A stretch of 64,000 bases of DNA from Bacteroidota bacterium (lineage in GTDB: Bacteria > Bacteroidota > Ignavibacteria > Ignavibacteriales > SURF-24), in NCBI GenBank assembly GCA_030706145.1, contig JAUZPB010000004.1:23355-87354 (forward strand), read 5' to 3'. Shown here in pieces: positions 49,195-58,993 of this stretch. Position 1 is the stretch's first letter, and each line of letters starts with the position of its first letter. The notes beneath the pieces were generated by a model. It saw only the letters and a list, made by a program, of their open reading frames with translations, did no database searches and was not told the DNA's origin. The position numbers were made by a program, and so were the translations under genes.

Positions 49195-50019
49195 TTAGTT
49201 CTCCTTCTCGTTAGGTACTTTCAGATCACCCAGCGGGTAATAAGGCAGCATATTTTCTTCCAGCCACTTATTTGCCTGAACCGGATTCATCTTCCAGTTC
49301 GAAGGACAATCCGAGACAATTTCTACAAAGCATAAGCCCTTGTTAAGTTTTTGATATTCAAAGCTCTTTAAGATTGCTTTTTTTGCTCTTCTGACATTAG
49401 CCGGAGTATTTACTGCCGTACGTGTGCAATAATAAACTCCAGGCAGAGTAGCAACAATTTCAGTAATCTTCAAAGGGTTGCCCATTGTAAGAACATCGCG
49501 GCCAAAAGGTGAAGTCGTTGTTTTCATTCCAGGTAAAGTAGTAGGAGCCATCTGTCCACCAGTCATACCATAAATAGCATTATTAATAAATACTATTAAT
49601 ATGTTTTCTCCCCTGTTGCAGGTATGGATTGTCTCTGCAGTACCAATAGCAGCCAGGTCGCCATCTCCCTGATAAGAAAAGACGTATTTTTCTGGCATTA
49701 CTCTTTTTATGCCTGTAGCAACAGCTGAGGCTCTGCCATGGGCAGCTTCCTGCATATCTATATTCAGATAGTTATAAGCAAAAACTGCACAGCCTACAGG
49801 AGCCACGCCAATTGTATTTTCCTGTATGCCAAGTTCAGAAATAACTTCAGCTATAAGGCGATGAGCAACACCATGCCCGCAACCCGGGCAATAATGCATA
49901 GGTGTATCCAAAAGAGTATCAGGTTTTTCATAAACTATATTTTCATTGCAGAAAATGCATTCTGCCTGGTCTACTTCCTGCTCTCTCAAATCTTCTTCAA
50001 GCATTGTTTTCTCGTTCAT
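49195..50019 (-). CDS. 2-oxoacid:ferredoxin oxidoreductase, TPP-binding beta subunit
   Basis: MHYCPGCGHGVAHRL, YQGDGDLAAIGTAETIHTCNRGENILIVFINNAIYGMTGGQMAPTT. Confidence 0.95.
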   Translation of the reverse strand: MNEKTMLEEDLREQEVDQAECIFCNENIVYEKPDTLLDTPMHYCPGCGHGVAHRLIAEVISELGIQENTIGVAPVGCAVFAYNYLNIDMQEAAHGRASAVATGIKRVMPEKYVFSYQGDGDLAAIGTAETIHTCNRGENILIVFINNAIYGMTGGQMAPTTLPGMKTTTSPFGRDVLTMGNPLKITEIVATLPGVYYCTRTAVNTPANVRRAKKAILKSFEYQKLNKGLCFVEIVSDCPSNWKMNPVQANKWLEENMLPYYPLGDLKVPNEKEN

Positions 50020-51092
50020 ACTAATTCTCCGACAAATTTTTCTTCAATTTTTGCGAGAATTTCTTCCGGAGATGGAACAATTCCACCCATTCTGCCGTGA
50101 AACTCTACCTTTTTCTGACCATTTACAGCTAATCTAACATCTTCAACCATCTGACCTGCATTCATCTCAACATCAAGAAAACCTTTTATGTTTTCCTTAG
50201 CTGCAAGTTTATTTATTGCATCATAAGGGAATGGGAAAAGTGTTTTTGGTCTAAAGACACCAACCTTTATTCCCTTTGCCCTTGCAAGCTGAGCTGCTTT
50301 TTGGCAAATTCTAGCTACAAGTCCATAAGCTGTCAGAATTACCTCTGCATCATCACAGTCAATTGTTGCAAAACGAGTTTCTTCCTTTTCTATTTCTTTA
50401 TACTTTGCCTGCAGGTGAAGATTTATCTCCTCCATCTTGTCGGGCTTAATATGAAGAGAAGTAATTATATTTCTTTCCCTATCCTTAGGTTTACCAACTG
50501 TAGCCCAAGGTTCAATATTGGTCTTTCTTTGCATCTGCTCGAAGAGCTCGACTTTTTCCATCATTTGTCCTAAAGCTCCATCGGCAAGAATCATAACTGG
50601 GTTTCTCCATTTAAAGGCCAGGTCAAATCCAAGACGCACAAAGTCGACCATTTCCTGAACATTAGAAGGAGCAAGTACGATCATCCTGTAATCACCGTGA
50701 CCACCACCTTTAACGGCCTGGAAATAATCCCCCTGCGAGGGTTGAATTGTTCCTAATCCTGGACCTCCTCTTACTACATTAACGAGTAAGCATGGCAACT
50801 CAGCACATGCAATATAGGAAATGCCTTCCTGCATAAGGCTAATTCCCGGGCTTGAAGAGGATGTCATTGCTCTTTTGCCAGTACCAGCAGCTCCATAGAC
50901 CATGTTAATTGAAGCTACTTCGCTCTCAGCTTGAAGAACTACCATACCTGTTCTCTTATGGGCTTCAAGGCTTAAATACTCCAGAATTTCTGATTGTGGA
51001 GTAATAGGATACCCGAAATAAGCATCGCAACCGCTACGAATGACAGCTTCTGCTAATGCTTCATTCCCTTTCATTAATCTTGATTCTTTCAT
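50016..51092 (-). CDS. 2-oxoacid:ferredoxin oxidoreductase, alpha subunit (VorB-like)
   Basis: LMKGNEALAEAVIRSGCDAYFGYPITPQSEI, TSSSSPGISLMQEGISYIA. Confidence 0.93.
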   Translation of the reverse strand: MKESRLMKGNEALAEAVIRSGCDAYFGYPITPQSEILEYLSLEAHKRTGMVVLQAESEVASINMVYGAAGTGKRAMTSSSSPGISLMQEGISYIACAELPCLLVNVVRGGPGLGTIQPSQGDYFQAVKGGGHGDYRMIVLAPSNVQEMVDFVRLGFDLAFKWRNPVMILADGALGQMMEKVELFEQMQRKTNIEPWATVGKPKDRERNIITSLHIKPDKMEEINLHLQAKYKEIEKEETRFATIDCDDAEVILTAYGLVARICQKAAQLARAKGIKVGVFRPKTLFPFPYDAINKLAAKENIKGFLDVEMNAGQMVEDVRLAVNGQKKVEFHGRMGGIVPSPEEILAKIEEKFVGELV

Positions 51093-51376
51093 GATTTCAC
51101 CGTTACTGTTATGTCGTTGGTTACATTTGTTATTGTTGCAACTGGCTCTTTTTTATTTAAGGTCATTCTATAGACCTTAATGATGCCCTCAGGACATACT
51201 AGGGCACAATTAGTACAGCCAGTACAGTTGTCCTCGATCCTAACAATGTAATGATACCCCTTTGAATTGATCTTCCGCGAAAGTTCCAGCGATTTCTGTG
51301 GACAGGCTGCTCTACAGAGTTCACATCCTTTGCATTTTTCAATATCAACAAGAATATCTCCTTTTACTTTAGCCAT
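51089..51376 (-). CDS. 2-oxoacid:ferredoxin oxidoreductase, 4Fe-4S ferredoxin delta subunit
   Basis: CKGCELCRAACP and CTGCTNCALVCPEG. Confidence 0.92.
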   Translation of the reverse strand: MAKVKGDILVDIEKCKGCELCRAACPQKSLELSRKINSKGYHYIVRIEDNCTGCTNCALVCPEGIIKVYRMTLNKKEPVATITNVTNDITVTVKS

Positions 51377-51403
51377 GTGGATACCCCGTTTGTTATTTAA
51401 AAC

Positions 51404-51434
51404 AAAAAAGGTTACTTCTAAACCGAGTAACCTT
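51404..51434 (-). terminator. Intrinsic terminator/attenuator-like hairpin upstream of ferredoxin-subunit gene
   Basis: AAGGTTACT (51408-51416) / AGTAACCTT (51426-51434) perfect 9 bp stem; minus-strand T-tract CCTTTTTTG. Confidence 0.7.
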
Positions 51435-51576
51435 ATTCGATTGGTTTAATTAATAATAATCTCGATTAGATTTAGGTTTACTAATACAAAGTTATTAATT
51501 ATGTTTAGCTTCATTTTGTTCAGCTTCACTTTAAATATATTAATTCTGCAGGTTTACAGTTTAATTAAATTTTTAT

Positions 51577-52491
51577 TTATTCAGATTCAAATTGGTCTCT
51601 TGCATGTTTATCTGCATGATAGGAACTCCTGACCAATGGAGCAGATTCAACGGCCGAGAACCCCATTTTCTTTCCTTCAGTCTTGTACATCTTAAATTCA
51701 TCAAGTGTAACATAGCGGTCAACAGGAAGATGAATTTTTGTCGGCTGCAGGTATTGTCCAATTGTGAGAATGTCACAACCATGTTCTCTAAGGTCATGCA
51801 TAAGCTCCAGAACTTCCTCTGGCTTTTCTCCAATACCTACCATAATTCCGCTTTTAGTTCTTAACTGTTTTTCCTTGAACCATCTTATCAGATTAAGGCT
51901 TCTTTCATATTTTGCCTGAGGGCGGACAACATGATAAAGTCTTGGCACAGTTTCAAGGTTGTGATTCAATATATCAGGCGGATACTTCATTATTATTTCA
52001 AATGCTTCTTCCGACCCCTTAAAGTCAGGTATAAGAATTTCAACAGTACATTCAGGTCTTCTTTCCCTTATAAGTCTGATAGTCTCAGAAAATATCGAAG
52101 AGCCACCATCTTTAAGTTCGTCACGGTTGACTGAAGTAATAACAACATGGCGCAGTTTTAATTTTTCAACTGCCTCAACCACCCTTTCAGGCTCCTGTTT
52201 GTCAAGAACATTCGGCATTCCGGTCTTAATATTACAAAATCCGCAGCTTCTTGTACAGGTATCACCTAAAATCATGAAAGTAGCCGTGCGGCTATTCCAG
52301 CATTCACCCATATTTGGGCATTTAGCTTCTTCACAGACCGTGTGAAGATTTGAATCACGCATTAAATGATAAACATCAGAATAATTCTGCCCAATGGGAA
52401 GTTTAACCTTTAGCCAATCGGGCCTTTTTCCCAACTGCTCTTTATCTTTTTCAGCAGCTTCCTTGTATTGCCTTTGATACGAATTAATCAA
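51577..52491 (-). CDS. lipA: Lipoyl synthase
   Basis: CEEAKCPNMGECW and CTRSCGFCNI radical-SAM motifs. TTG start at 52489-52491 with AAAGG SD proposed; ORF track start 52566 would include a hairpin in the coding region. Confidence 0.94.
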   Translation of the reverse strand: MINSYQRQYKEAAEKDKEQLGKRPDWLKVKLPIGQNYSDVYHLMRDSNLHTVCEEAKCPNMGECWNSRTATFMILGDTCTRSCGFCNIKTGMPNVLDKQEPERVVEAVEKLKLRHVVITSVNRDELKDGGSSIFSETIRLIRERRPECTVEILIPDFKGSEEAFEIIMKYPPDILNHNLETVPRLYHVVRPQAKYERSLNLIRWFKEKQLRTKSGIMVGIGEKPEEVLELMHDLREHGCDILTIGQYLQPTKIHLPVDRYVTLDEFKMYKTEGKKMGFSAVESAPLVRSSYHADKHARDQFESE

Positions 52492-52518
52492 AATATTAAC
52501 CTTTCTGTTTTTAAGCAC

Positions 52519-52539
52519 AAAGCGGCAAAAAGCCGCTTT
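52519..52539. other. Perfect hairpin between E2 and lipA
   Basis: AAAGCGGC-AAAAA-GCCGCTTT. Confidence 0.6.
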
Positions 52540-52593
52540 ATAGATATAAAAAATCAAGCGAACCAATTTAACGAAAATCCCGGAACAAAGAAA

Positions 52594-54303
52594 CTAGATA
52601 TCATTTAAGTCAAAATTTTCGATCGTATCTTTCATAAATTTCAGGAATTTTCCCCCCAGCATTCCATCAATAAGACGATGGTCATGGCTTAAAGATAAAT
52701 ACATCATCGGCCTTATCGCTATTGTATCAGCCCCATCAAGTTCAACAACGACAGGCTTTTTTATTACGGTACCAACACCGAGTATTGCAACTTCGGGCTG
52801 ATTAATAATGGGAGTACCAAAGAGTGTCCCAAATACGCCATAATTTGTAATAGTGAAAGTTCCGTTCGAAATATCATCCGGAAGCAGCTTCTTTGTCCTT
52901 GCTTTATTGCTCAACTCAGCAATCGCTTTAGCTAATCCTATTATGTTCTTTTCGTCTGCATTTTTAATATTAGGGACAATAAGACCATTAGGTTCAACCG
53001 AAACGGCAATTCCAAGGTTAATATACCTTTTTAGTACAATATTAGTGCCATCAATCGAGGAATTAAGATACGGATACTCTTTTAGTGCTTTAATGCATGC
53101 ATTAGCAATAAAGGGCATATAAGTAAGCTTTATATTTTCTCTTTTTAGAAAATCATCTTTATTGATTTTGATAAAATTGTGAATTTTCATCATATCCACT
53201 TCAATCATAGCGGAAACATGGACTGAAGTATCCCTGCTTTTTACCATATGCATCATAATTTTCTGACGTATATTATCCATGGGGATAAGCTCATTATTGC
53301 CATCTGAAAATGAAGGCTGATGCAGTTTTTCTTGTTGAGTCCTTTCCTGTAGGACTTGCTTTTGTTCTTCCTGAGGGGAAAAGCTCTTTTCAGGAGCTTT
53401 CTTTGGATATGAATAAGAAGGAGTTTCTTCTTTGGTCTTAACTATTCCTTTATTGCTTATGTAATCCAGAATATCTTTTTTTGTTACCCTTCCTTCAACG
53501 CCGCTTCCAGGGATATTTTCAAGTTCTTCAAAAGCGACGTTTTCCTTTTGAGCGATATTTAGGACAAGTGGAGAATAAAATCTCTTTGCTGAGGGTCTTA
53601 CCTCCTGAAAAGCTTCATTTGATTTAATCTCAGCATAAAGGCTGTCCATTTGAGGGACCCTTTTTTCTATTATATTTTCACTTTCTACAATTGGAGTTTT
53701 AACAACAGTAGCCGCCGGTTCTTTATATACACCCCCTTTTGATGTTATTCTGGCAACTATAGTCCCGACCTCTACTGTCTGCTGCTCACCAACAAGTATC
53801 TCTGCAAGTGTTCCATCTTCAGGTGATGGGACCTCAGTATCGACTTTATCTGTACTTATCTCGAAAAGGACCTCATCTTTCTTAACTGGATCTCCTGGCT
53901 TTTTATGCCATTTTATTATTGTTCCTTCCATAACTGACTCGCCCATCTTGGGCATAGGTATTTCAATAAGATTTCCTCCAATCTGGGTAGTCGATGGTGT
54001 TTCGGCCTGTTTCTTCTCAAAAGAAGGAGAAACTGGCGTTTTTTCCTGAGGCATTTCACTATTTTCAGCTGTTTCAATTACAGCCACAACCGTATCTACC
54101 GGAACGGTCTCCTGCTCAAAAACTTTTACTTCCGAAAGAATACCATCTGAGGGGGAAGGTATTTCAGTATCAACCTTATCTGTACTGATCTCAAAGATTA
54201 TTTCATCTTTTTTTACTCTATCACCTTTTTTCTTATGCCATTTTATGATAGTCCCCTCATTAACACTCTCCCCCATTTTAGGCATAACTACATCAATTCT
54301 CAT
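52594..54303 (-). CDS. 2-oxoacid dehydrogenase E2 (dihydrolipoyl acyltransferase) with two lipoyl domains
   Basis: Two copies of PKMGESVxEGTIIKWHKKxGDxVKKDE...FEISTDKVDTExPSP; PSBD VRPSAKRFYSPLVLNIAQKENV; catalytic SHDHRLIDG. Confidence 0.95.
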   Translation of the reverse strand: MRIDVVMPKMGESVNEGTIIKWHKKKGDRVKKDEIIFEISTDKVDTEIPSPSDGILSEVKVFEQETVPVDTVVAVIETAENSEMPQEKTPVSPSFEKKQAETPSTTQIGGNLIEIPMPKMGESVMEGTIIKWHKKPGDPVKKDEVLFEISTDKVDTEVPSPEDGTLAEILVGEQQTVEVGTIVARITSKGGVYKEPAATVVKTPIVESENIIEKRVPQMDSLYAEIKSNEAFQEVRPSAKRFYSPLVLNIAQKENVAFEELENIPGSGVEGRVTKKDILDYISNKGIVKTKEETPSYSYPKKAPEKSFSPQEEQKQVLQERTQQEKLHQPSFSDGNNELIPMDNIRQKIMMHMVKSRDTSVHVSAMIEVDMMKIHNFIKINKDDFLKRENIKLTYMPFIANACIKALKEYPYLNSSIDGTNIVLKRYINLGIAVSVEPNGLIVPNIKNADEKNIIGLAKAIAELSNKARTKKLLPDDISNGTFTITNYGVFGTLFGTPIINQPEVAILGVGTVIKKPVVVELDGADTIAIRPMMYLSLSHDHRLIDGMLGGKFLKFMKDTIENFDLNDI

Positions 54304-54335
54304 TTTACACCCTCCTCCTAAAGTTGTATAAAGGC

Positions 54336-56453
54336 TTAATAAGCGAGCATTTCCTTCAATGCTCTGTAGATTCTTTCCCGGGTTGGGAGTACTGCATTTT
54401 CTAAATTAGGATGATAAGGAATCGGAGTGTCCAGTCCTGCAATTCTTTTGACCGGTCCATCAAGGTGCTGGAAACAGTTATCAGCTATTCTAGCAGCTAT
54501 TTCAGCACCGAATCCCCCTGTAAGTGAATCCTCATGAATGATAACAACTTTTCCAGTCTTTTTAACAGAATTAAAGATTGTCTCTTCATCCAAAGGATTG
54601 ATAGTCCTTAGATCAATAATTTCAATTGAATATCCCATTTCATTTAGTTTAGCGGCGGCAAAACTTGTTTCATGAACCATTGCACCGTAAGTCACGACAG
54701 AAATGTCATTGCCCTCTTTTATTATCTTTGCTTTGCCAAACGGGACAAGGTAATCTGCATCGGGTTCGGGAGTGGTGGCATAGCTTTGCCTATACAATCC
54801 TTTATGTTCAAGGAACAAGACAGGGTCATTTATTCTTAATGCAGTTTTTAACAATCCCTTTGCATCTGCTGCATTTGATGGATAAGCAATTAGTAGTCCA
54901 GGCATATGTGCAAAAAAGCCTTCAATATTCTGGCTGTGAAACAGTCCGCCATGAATAAATCCACCGACAGCAACTCGTGTTACAACTGGAGCTTCCCAGT
55001 GATTGTTTGACCTGTAGCGATAAGTAACCATTTCATCTCTGAACTGCATAAAAGCAGGCCAGATATAATCACCGAACTGAATTTCAACAACAGGTTTTAA
55101 GCCATTTAGAGCCATTCCGATTGCAACACCTACAATACTAGCCTCGGCTAAGGGAGAGTTAAATACTCTTTGCAAACCAAACTGAGAGGACAATCCCTTT
55201 GTAGCTGTAAATACGCCTCCTTTATTGTCAGCAACATCCTCGCCGAAAAGATATATCTTATTGTTTCTTTCCATTTCTTCGCGAATGGCGTGATTTATTG
55301 CATCAACCAGTACAATTGGTTTTCCGGATGGTTTATTTTTTTCATAAATAAGTCTTTCTTTTTTCCCACTTTCATCCAGGACATATTTTGTAGCTGTTTC
55401 GGCTTTGGGATCATCATGCGTCATAGCCCAGTTTGCAGCTTCCTCGATATGATTATTTACTTCTTTTTTAAGCTCCTCATAGGCCAGGACAGTCATCACA
55501 TTACGCTTTAACAAAAGCTCAGAAAAATGGTTTATCGGGCACTTCTTTTGATCTGCCTCAATTTCCTCTTGTGTCCTGTATTTTTTCTGGTCATCTGAAG
55601 ATGAATGCGAAAGAAGCCTTACGCAATCGGCTTCGATTAAAACAGGTCCTTTGCCTTGCCTTGCGTACTTAAAGGCAGTTTGTGCCGCGGCATGCATGGC
55701 AAGAAAATCAGTGCCATTTACCCTCAGTCTTAAAAGGTTCTCATAACCTTTCATCATCTCTGCAATGGAGGCATCCTTTCCGCCTGACTGGAATTGAACA
55801 GGGACAGAGATTGCGTATTTGTTATTTTGGATGACGAAAACCACAGGGATTTTCTCCCTGCTTGCCCAATTTACAGCTTCGTGAAATTCTCCTTCACTTG
55901 TTGTGCCTTCGCCGCTGCTGACATATGTAACAGAATTAATTCCCTTTTTTACGTTAGCAAGTGCACTTCCAACAGCCTGAAGGAACTGCGTACCTGTCGG
56001 GCTTGACTGAGTTGGAATATTAAGCTCCTTATATCCCCAATGGCATGGCATCTGCCTGCCGCCTGTCATAGGATCATCGGCTTTTGCAAGCATTGTTAGA
56101 AAAACTTCCTCAGGTTTTACTCCCATAGCTAAAGTAAAAGCCAGATCCCTGTAATATGGGAAGGCCCAGTCAATTCCCTTTTTCATTGCAAGAGCACATG
56201 CAACCTGAGTAGCCTCATGCCCGGCTCCTGGAATATGGAAAAAGGATTTCCCTTGTTTAAGAAGGTTCATGGCTTTTATATCGATTTGCCTCGACATATA
56301 CATCATTCTTAAGGCATTCATCAGCTCATTTTTAGTAAGGCCCCCGAAGGAATCAATTTTCCCTGTTGGGGTTTCCTCCCTTTGGGTTTCAGCAGCCGTC
56401 ATATTCTCTGCTCTATTTTCATTTTCCCTAGTCATTTTCTCTATTCCTTCCAA
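54336..56453 (-). CDS. 2-oxoacid dehydrogenase E1, fused alpha-beta
   Basis: E1-alpha half (FFHIPGAGHEATQVACALAM, SSGEGTTSEGEFHEAVNWAS) fused to transketolase-like E1-beta half (VDAINHAIREEMERNNKIYLFGEDVADNKGGVF). Confidence 0.95.
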   Translation of the reverse strand: MEGIEKMTRENENRAENMTAAETQREETPTGKIDSFGGLTKNELMNALRMMYMSRQIDIKAMNLLKQGKSFFHIPGAGHEATQVACALAMKKGIDWAFPYYRDLAFTLAMGVKPEEVFLTMLAKADDPMTGGRQMPCHWGYKELNIPTQSSPTGTQFLQAVGSALANVKKGINSVTYVSSGEGTTSEGEFHEAVNWASREKIPVVFVIQNNKYAISVPVQFQSGGKDASIAEMMKGYENLLRLRVNGTDFLAMHAAAQTAFKYARQGKGPVLIEADCVRLLSHSSSDDQKKYRTQEEIEADQKKCPINHFSELLLKRNVMTVLAYEELKKEVNNHIEEAANWAMTHDDPKAETATKYVLDESGKKERLIYEKNKPSGKPIVLVDAINHAIREEMERNNKIYLFGEDVADNKGGVFTATKGLSSQFGLQRVFNSPLAEASIVGVAIGMALNGLKPVVEIQFGDYIWPAFMQFRDEMVTYRYRSNNHWEAPVVTRVAVGGFIHGGLFHSQNIEGFFAHMPGLLIAYPSNAADAKGLLKTALRINDPVLFLEHKGLYRQSYATTPEPDADYLVPFGKAKIIKEGNDISVVTYGAMVHETSFAAAKLNEMGYSIEIIDLRTINPLDEETIFNSVKKTGKVVIIHEDSLTGGFGAEIAARIADNCFQHLDGPVKRIAGLDTPIPYHPNLENAVLPTRERIYRALKEMLAY

Positions 56454-56469
56454 TTTTTAATCAACCAGT

Positions 56470-57177
56470 TTATTGGACTGGATGAATTATTTCCCTCTTA
56501 TTCTGCTCATTGACCTTATCATAACTGAAGACCTCGGAAAAGTTGCTCACCAATCTGGATTTTACCTCGCTTAAGTTTATCTCCATTCCCAATTCCTTCT
56601 TTAATGAAGTAACTTCTTTGTCTTTTATTCCGCACGGAATAATTCCATTAAAAAGTGATAAGTCTGTATTAACATTAAAAGCAAAGCCATGCATTGTTAT
56701 CCACCTGCTAACTTTTATTCCAATTGCAGCAATTTTTCTATGGTCTATCCAAACCCCAGTAAGTTTATCTATTCTTGTAGCATTAATTCCATAATCCTTA
56801 CAGGTACGAATAATAACTTCTTCAAGTCCGCGTAGATAAAGGTGAGTATCCTCTTTCCAGAGTTTTAGATCAATTATCGGATAGCCGACAATCTGTCCTG
56901 GCCCATGATATGTAATATCCCCTCCGCGGTCTATCTCGAAGATGGATATATTATTCTTCTTAAGAAACTCCTCTGAGCTTATTAGATTTGCTTTGTCAGT
57001 TACTTTTCCCAATGTATATGTATTGGGATGTTCCAGAAGATAGAGAGTATCATTTATACTGTTGTTTCTTCTTAATTCAAAAGTTTTTTTCTGCAGATCC
57101 CAGGCATTGTCATATGCTATCATGCCAAGGTCGAAATAATCAATTTCTCTAAATGTGAATTGCCTCTCCATAAGCAT
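56470..57177 (-). CDS. lipB: Lipoyl(octanoyl) transferase
   Basis: RGGDITYHGPGQIVGYPIIDL, TGVWIDHRKIAAIGIKVSRWITMHGFAFNVN, GIIPCGI. Confidence 0.96.
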   Translation of the reverse strand: MLMERQFTFREIDYFDLGMIAYDNAWDLQKKTFELRRNNSINDTLYLLEHPNTYTLGKVTDKANLISSEEFLKKNNISIFEIDRGGDITYHGPGQIVGYPIIDLKLWKEDTHLYLRGLEEVIIRTCKDYGINATRIDKLTGVWIDHRKIAAIGIKVSRWITMHGFAFNVNTDLSLFNGIIPCGIKDKEVTSLKKELGMEINLSEVKSRLVSNFSEVFSYDKVNEQNKREIIHPVQ

Positions 57178-58576
57178 TTGCTACTGCTTCCATATTTGAT
57201 TCTGATAAAGTTGGATGTGCATGAACAGTTTTGATGATTGTTTCAAATGTTGCCTCCATTGATTTAGCTAGTGTGAACTCGGCAATAAGTTCTGTCGCTT
57301 CAGAGCCTATTATATGAGCGCCCAAAAGTTCACCATATTTACTATCAAAAATTACTTTTACCATTCCTTCTCTTTCTCCAACGGCAAAAGCTTTACCGCT
57401 GGCCGAATAAGGAAATCTTCCAATTTTTAGATCATAGCCTTCTGCCAAAGCTTTTTCTTCTGTCAAACCTACGCTTGCAACCTGGGGCTGGCAATAAGTG
57501 CACCCCGGGATCATATCATAATCAATTGCAGGAGGATTTAATCCCTTTATTGTCTCAACGCAATGGATCCCTTCAGCAGAAGCAACGTGAGCAAGCCATG
57601 GTGGGCCTATTACATCTCCAATGGCAAAAATATCATTTATATTTGTCTGATAAGTTCTCTTATCTACTTTTATATGGTTTTTGAATAATTCAATGCCAAG
57701 GTTTTCGAGCCCGAAACCCTCTACATTACCTGTAACACCTATGGCATTTAGAGCAATATCAGCAGAAATAACACTTGTTTTACCCTCGGAATTCAAAGTT
57801 ACTTCAACACGGTTTCCTTTAATTTCTGCCTTCTCGACAATAGATCTGGTATGAATTGTAATACCTTTTTTCTTTAATTCCTTTGTGAGAGCTTCACTGA
57901 TCTCTTTGTCTTCAATGGGCAGTATACTGTTTAAGGCTTCAACTACAGTTACCTTTGTACCAAAGACGCTATAGAAGTATGCAAATTCAATTCCAATTGC
58001 CCCAGCACCAATAATTATCATCTCTGCCGGCATATCTTTTAGTACCATTGCCTCTGTACTTGTAATTATCTTTTCTCCGTCTACAGGGATCTGTTTAATA
58101 GTTCTTGCTCTTGCCCCTGTAGCTATAATTATTTTGCTGGCTTCAATGCTTTCGGTTATATTTCCATTCTGATCAAAAACTTCAAGCACTTTCTCATTAG
58201 CAAATTTTCCAAAGCCTCTGATGCGGTCAATTTTGTTTTTCTTCATCAGATATTCAACATTCCTTGCTAATCTGTCAGCAACATCTCTGCTTCTTTTAAT
58301 AATCTTTGGAAAATCAAACGAGCAATTCTCAACATTTATCCCAAATTGTCCGGCATTTTTAATCTTCTCATACAAATCTGCGTTCTTAAGCAAAGCTTTA
58401 GTGGGGATGCACCCCCAGTTAAGACAAATTCCCCCTAAGTTATCTTTATCAATTATTACTGTCTTAAAACCCAGTTGTGCGGATCTAATGGCAGCTACAT
58501 ACCCACCTGGTCCACCACCTAAAATAGCAATATCATATTTACCTGACATTATTGCCCCGCTATCTGTAATATTCAC
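57149..58576 (-). CDS. lpdA: Dihydrolipoyl dehydrogenase
   Basis: AILGGGPGGYVAAIRSAQLG, GGICLNWGCIPTKALL, AHAHPTLSE-type C-term (VHAHPTLSESNMEA). Confidence 0.96.
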   Translation of the reverse strand: MNITDSGAIMSGKYDIAILGGGPGGYVAAIRSAQLGFKTVIIDKDNLGGICLNWGCIPTKALLKNADLYEKIKNAGQFGINVENCSFDFPKIIKRSRDVADRLARNVEYLMKKNKIDRIRGFGKFANEKVLEVFDQNGNITESIEASKIIIATGARARTIKQIPVDGEKIITSTEAMVLKDMPAEMIIIGAGAIGIEFAYFYSVFGTKVTVVEALNSILPIEDKEISEALTKELKKKGITIHTRSIVEKAEIKGNRVEVTLNSEGKTSVISADIALNAIGVTGNVEGFGLENLGIELFKNHIKVDKRTYQTNINDIFAIGDVIGPPWLAHVASAEGIHCVETIKGLNPPAIDYDMIPGCTYCQPQVASVGLTEEKALAEGYDLKIGRFPYSASGKAFAVGEREGMVKVIFDSKYGELLGAHIIGSEATELIAEFTLAKSMEATFETIIKTVHAHPTLSESNMEAVANAYGEAIHI

Positions 58577-58631: not shown

Positions 58632-58993
58632 TCATTCTATGTTATCCAGAAGCAGGAATGTACTTTCCTTGTATTCAACATTTTCAGACATATTCTTGTA
58701 CTCATAAGCGCACAGCTTGAATATTGGACAAATAGAACAATTCGGAAGAGTTTGCCTGCATATCTAATTGGTTTTTCAATTAAAAGAAGGTCAGATTTTG
58801 CAACTTCTTCCCAGCTTTGGAATTCCTTTTTAAGATTAACAAATGACCTATAAGAGTTCCTGTCATTTGTATTTTGTGACAAAATCGTGGCAATTAGTAT
58901 ATCCACCGGGTCCGGATTAGGATTTTTTTGTATAGGCAGACCATATTTTTTTATTAGGAGTTTGTTTATTTTTGCTATCTCTTCTTTTATCAT
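58632..58993 (-). pseudogene. nth: Endonuclease III remnant with out-of-frame internal deletion
   Basis: N-part DPVDILIATILSQNTNDRNSYRSFVNLKKEF...LLLIEKPIRYAG in frame; downstream, in another frame, ICRQTLPNCSICPIFKLCAYEYKNMSENVEYKESTFLLLDNIE* gives the Fe-S loop C-X6-C-X2-C-X5-C; catalytic middle absent. Confidence 0.85.

Follow-up and report, generated by a model that had tools for sequence, protein, structure and literature searches.

A second endonuclease III-like glycosylase gene, probably a recent pseudogene, in an Ignavibacteria bacterium that keeps its canonical nth

A gene of the endonuclease III (EndoIII) family lies in two pieces in a bacterium of the Ignavibacteria, which raises the questions of how and when it was broken and whether the organism has lost its endonuclease III. 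The window that we analyzed is a 64,000-nt stretch of contig JAUZPB010000004.1 (assembly GCA_030706145.1), and positions without a contig name refer to it. The coordinates, translation and cysteine spacing given in a preliminary description of 58632-58993 were right when the two pieces of the one gene were re-read. The locus comprises the following features:

58754..58993, minus strand: 5′ piece, made up of codons 1-80 of a pseudogene for an Nth-like EndoIII paralogue (68% identical to the intact protein L004 at its residues 1-80)
58632..58763, minus strand: 3′ piece, the last 43 codons plus a TGA stop in another frame, with four Fe-S cysteines (68% identical to L004 at residues 193-236)
58755..58763, minus strand: deletion junction, ATATGCAGG, from a register analysis against 28 intact relatives
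58637..58993, minus strand: 118-aa chimeric ORF resulting from the deletion, with 80 Nth-like and 38 out-of-frame residues

The 80 codons of the 5′ piece translate as MIKEEIAKINKLLIKKYGLPIQKNPNPDPVDILIATILSQNTNDRNSYRSFVNLKKEFQSWEEVAKSDLLLIEKPIRYAG (MIKEEIAKIN...EKPIRYAG), past which the N-terminal frame runs on as unrelated KLFRIVLFV... until a stop. Read from 58763 down to 58632, the 3′ piece translates as ICRQTLPNCSICPIFKLCAYEYKNMSENVEYKESTFLLLDNIE followed by the stop, and includes the Fe-S loop CRQTLPNCSICPIFKLC with cysteines spaced C-X6-C-X2-C-X5-C. As the reference for an intact gene we took the single 237-codon frame found at loci L004 and L005 of genomes G003 and G004, which belong to the same family and are the two nearest genomes with an intact copy; comparison with the closest relatives, a check that the preliminary description had proposed, thus yielded unbroken orthologues. 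The 5′ piece aligns with residues 1-80 of the 237-aa protein L004 with an E-value of 3.6e-31 and the 3′ piece with residues 193-236 of the same protein with an E-value of 5.7e-15, both at the 68% identity listed above. Since a single intact protein matches one piece at each of its ends with such low E-values, chance is excluded, and the proposed internal, out-of-frame deletion in an endonuclease III-family gene is borne out.

The gap between the pieces corresponds to 114 residues in 26 of the 28 intact relatives and to 113 in the other two, and the register offset at the DNA level is 352 and 349 nt, respectively. Because 352 nt is not divisible by three, the reading frame changes. The loss itself was therefore described correctly; its size, put earlier at roughly 100 residues, is slightly greater (114 residues or 352 nt in 26 of 28 relatives). 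The absent residues include the helix-hairpin-helix, the catalytic Lys, the catalytic Asp and 34 columns that are near-invariant among the 28 relatives, in agreement with the earlier statement that the helix-hairpin-helix region with both catalytic residues is gone. The corresponding motifs of intact orthologues, GIGIKTA around the Lys (L004) and CPVDRH or CPVDTH around the Asp, are both absent from the window. The gene thus lacks the catalytic Lys and Asp expected of an EndoIII superfamily protein and retains the Fe-S loop, and with its frame disrupted relative to intact orthologues and essential residues missing it qualifies as a pseudogene. We give scarcely any credence to a shortened gene that still yields a useful product, whether this is the 118-aa chimera or an Fe-S peptide from the shifted frame. 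Both pieces do appear undecayed, but recency explains this equally well; besides the missing helix-hairpin-helix, Lys and Asp, the 38 C-terminal residues of the chimera are without family similarity, the chimera scores 14.7 bits against a Pfam cut-off of 26.2, and no known recoding signal joins the two frames. The 118-aa ORF would not be expected to work as a glycosylase.

The broken gene had been taken for the organism's endonuclease III, and here the results contradict the preliminary description. A whole-genome profile search of this 5.3-Mb genome (a draft assembly of 345 contigs) with HhH-GPD recovered two intact proteins, one of 214 aa on contig C298 and another, AlkA-like, on C130, vs. 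three such genes in each of the four other, nearest genomes of the family. The former, encoded at C298:25748-26362, is an intact canonical Nth: it scores 263.4 bits with TIGR01083, above the curated cut-off of 211.7, and keeps GVGRKTA with the Lys, VDTH with the Asp and the C-X6-C-X2-C-X5-C loop. Since this canonical Nth passes the cut-off, the broken gene is a second, EndoIII-type paralogue. The intact orthologues of the latter fall short of TIGR01083 (118.8 bits for L004 and 117.1 for L005), and their sequence shares only about 34% identity with the canonical Nth of this genome. A search for an intact nth or mutY paralogue elsewhere in the genome, suggested earlier, thus turned up the canonical nth and no protein scoring as MutY. 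Additionally, no match to Fpg/Nei (PF01149) was found in this genome. As its intact HhH-GPD genes number only two, of which neither scores as MutY, and PF01149 has no match, the 5.3-Mb genome has few glycosylases for oxidized bases.

The broken paralogue and the lack of an Fpg/Nei match might be read as signs that the organism is without any endonuclease III, which we regard as extremely improbable given the intact nth on C298. Contamination of this genome is given as 2.68% (CheckM-like), and the C298 protein is 72.5% identical to the canonical Nth of G003, a genome of the same family; it therefore fits this lineage.

As to what the second paralogue encoded, the intact orthologue has an HhH-GPD domain (PF00730, 65.6 bits vs. 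a cut-off of 26.2), and its best NCBIfam profile is NF053634 (5.5e-36), which stands for monofunctional DNA glycosylases of the DR2438 type, those that lack strong lyase activity. The scores of L004 and L005 with that profile, 124.2 and 129.5 bits, are both below its cut-off of 400, and the intact orthologues formally belong to neither equivalog family, TIGR01083 or NF053634. The best solved structures are those of Deinococcus radiodurans EndoIII-1 (E-values of 7.8e-28 to 9.7e-28). Judging from this similarity to profiles and structures, the intact product probably acts as an accessory glycosylase of the EndoIII type, similar to EndoIII-1 of Deinococcus.

The junction bears on how the gene was broken. 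ATATGCAGG can be read in both frames, as ..A TAT GCA GG. and as ATA TGC AGG. Relatives strongly conserve Ala79-Gly80 ahead of the gap and Ile-Cys behind it, so the original sequence was almost certainly GCNGG on the left and ATNTGC on the right. Codon 78 is variable, being Tyr here and Ser, Val, Ile, Thr or Ala in relatives; Tyr78 occurs in none of the 28, and none of these intact relatives has a long repeat in the junction register. Because Tyr78 is unmatched, we state the repeat only as up to 9-10 nt and possibly imperfect. The most likely event is a 352-nt internal deletion by slipped replication or end joining, with endpoints at a direct repeat that is short (at most 9-10 nt) and perhaps imperfect; the deletion would have taken out the 114 residues, including the helix-hairpin-helix and both catalytic residues, and shifted the frame. 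The short-homology deletion proposed earlier is accordingly probable, the nine nucleotides at 58755-58763 fitting both frames.

Such a junction could also be a product of assembly or binning, with an intact copy in the true genome and the contig misjoined at a short repeat. The junction is read from a single draft assembly of metagenome type, but the shared sequence there is at most 9-10 nt, so a misjoin would need chimeric reads. The k-mers of short-read assemblers are normally longer than this, which makes assembly collapse unlikely. In addition, when the full-length orthologue was searched against the whole assembly, neither a second copy nor the detached middle segment was found; the search matched only both pieces, the canonical Nth and, with an E-value of 0.07, the AlkA-like protein. 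The surrounding lpd-like, lipB-like and phosphomannomutase-like genes are also all intact. We therefore consider an artefact improbable. The pseudogene is immediately followed, on its own strand, by a compact lipoate/2-oxoacid dehydrogenase cluster (49538-58576, minus strand):

57149-58576, minus strand: lpd-like gene (profile-checked)
56470-57177, minus strand: lipB-like gene (profile-checked)
following the lipB-like gene, minus strand: large E1-like and E2-like genes (judged from translations)
51577-52566, minus strand: lipA-like gene (judged from translation)
51089-51376, minus strand: ferredoxin-like ORF (judged from translation)
50016-51092, minus strand: 2-oxoacid:ferredoxin oxidoreductase alpha-like gene (judged from translation)

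Within 18 kb, no gene order is shared with the intact copies of G003 and G004 except the gene itself. The nearest named relative from a contig scan was Ignavibacteria bacterium bin-C14 (64%), and the relatives compared all came from other genera.

The deletion appears to be young. Neither piece contains a stop inside its own frame, 33 of 34 near-invariant residues within the pieces are kept (the exception is Leu to Ile), and the non-synonymous distances of the remnant to eight outgroup sequences are no larger than those of intact L004 and L005. In a simulation with uniform substitutions, sequences that had no stops and no more than one conserved position changed made up about 5% of cases when neutral divergence was 0.05 per site and 0.4% when it was 0.08. 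If no selection has acted on the pieces since the deletion, a neutral divergence above about 5% is thus disfavored. The undecayed pieces, the lack of rate acceleration and the simulated limit all point to recent loss, as the preliminary description had supposed. A young deletion would also be consistent with a real but minority or strain-specific allele, the intact allele persisting in other strains. No alternative allele occurs among this genome's contigs, and we consider such an allele possible, if on balance unlikely.

Near full-length copies of the paralogue occur in about 120 of the 164 genomes of the order. Apparently broken copies were observed in other genera, by truncation or in-frame stops: L114 in G132 has one in-frame TAA, L113 in G112 has a TGA and lacks everything beyond about residue 112, and L109 in G098 is truncated right at the catalytic Asp. 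Truncated copies in G067, G075, G127 and G156 were rejected as pseudogenes since they run into contig ends. Several genera have only canonical-Nth-level matches, e.g., five genomes of g5 and three of g65. Together with the broken copies in G132, G112 and G098, these genera suggest that the paralogue was lost more than once; given such apparently independent losses in the order, it would be dispensable and its loss tolerated. A literature search on pseudogenes in Ignavibacteria found nothing relevant. In L004 and L005 the catalytic Asp is followed by Arg (VDRH, in CPVDRHIFR), whereas all other aligned relatives have Thr (VDTH). The change from VDTH to VDRH possibly marks a shift in function that this lineage underwent before the loss.

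We conclude that the locus is very probably a recent pseudogene of a second EndoIII-like glycosylase, made by a 352-nt deletion in a genome whose canonical nth is intact, and that the loss is tolerated. Since canonical Nth remains, loss of EndoIII activity is not implied, and a possible annotation error, the supposed loss of Nth, is corrected. As an ordinary case of an accessory repair gene that has recently become a pseudogene, the finding has little significance alone, beyond indicating that a genome can do without an extra EndoIII-type glycosylase that most of the order retains. Knocking out EndoIII genes singly in Deinococcus radiodurans did not sensitize it to ionizing radiation, UV-C or H2O2, and the knockouts were more resistant to methyl viologen than the wild type (PMC10523315). 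Earlier work, as cited in that paper, reported raised spontaneous mutation in D. radiodurans EndoIII knockouts, so a mild mutator effect is conceivable here. A changed mutation spectrum in this bacterium is no more than possible. More doubtfully, the EndoIII-1-like accessory glycosylase of Ignavibacteria-type bacteria may be under weak or fluctuating selection and repeatedly lost, the fresh break being a natural knockout. If so, this knockout could be set against the intact sister-genus copies, and the mutation spectrum could reveal the enzyme's in vivo substrate.

Among known systems, D. radiodurans EndoIII-1 (DR2438; PDB 4unf, 8a5c and 8a5f; NF053634) is the top structural and NCBIfam match of the intact orthologue. 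Like it, the orthologue accompanies a main EndoIII as an additional protein of this type and has the Lys, the Asp and the Fe-S loop; unlike it, the orthologue lies far below the NF053634 cut-off (124 vs. 400 bits) and is no equivalog, and the window copy is broken. With canonical Nth (TIGR01083) the intact orthologues share the HhH-GPD fold family, the Fe-S loop spacing and the catalytic Lys and Asp, and differ from it in profile score (118.8 vs. 211.7 bits) and in the low identity to the genome's own Nth. Finally, ordinary bacterial pseudogenes formed at short repeats show the same out-of-frame deletion, short repeat at the junction and undecayed pieces, and from these the locus does not differ in any notable way.
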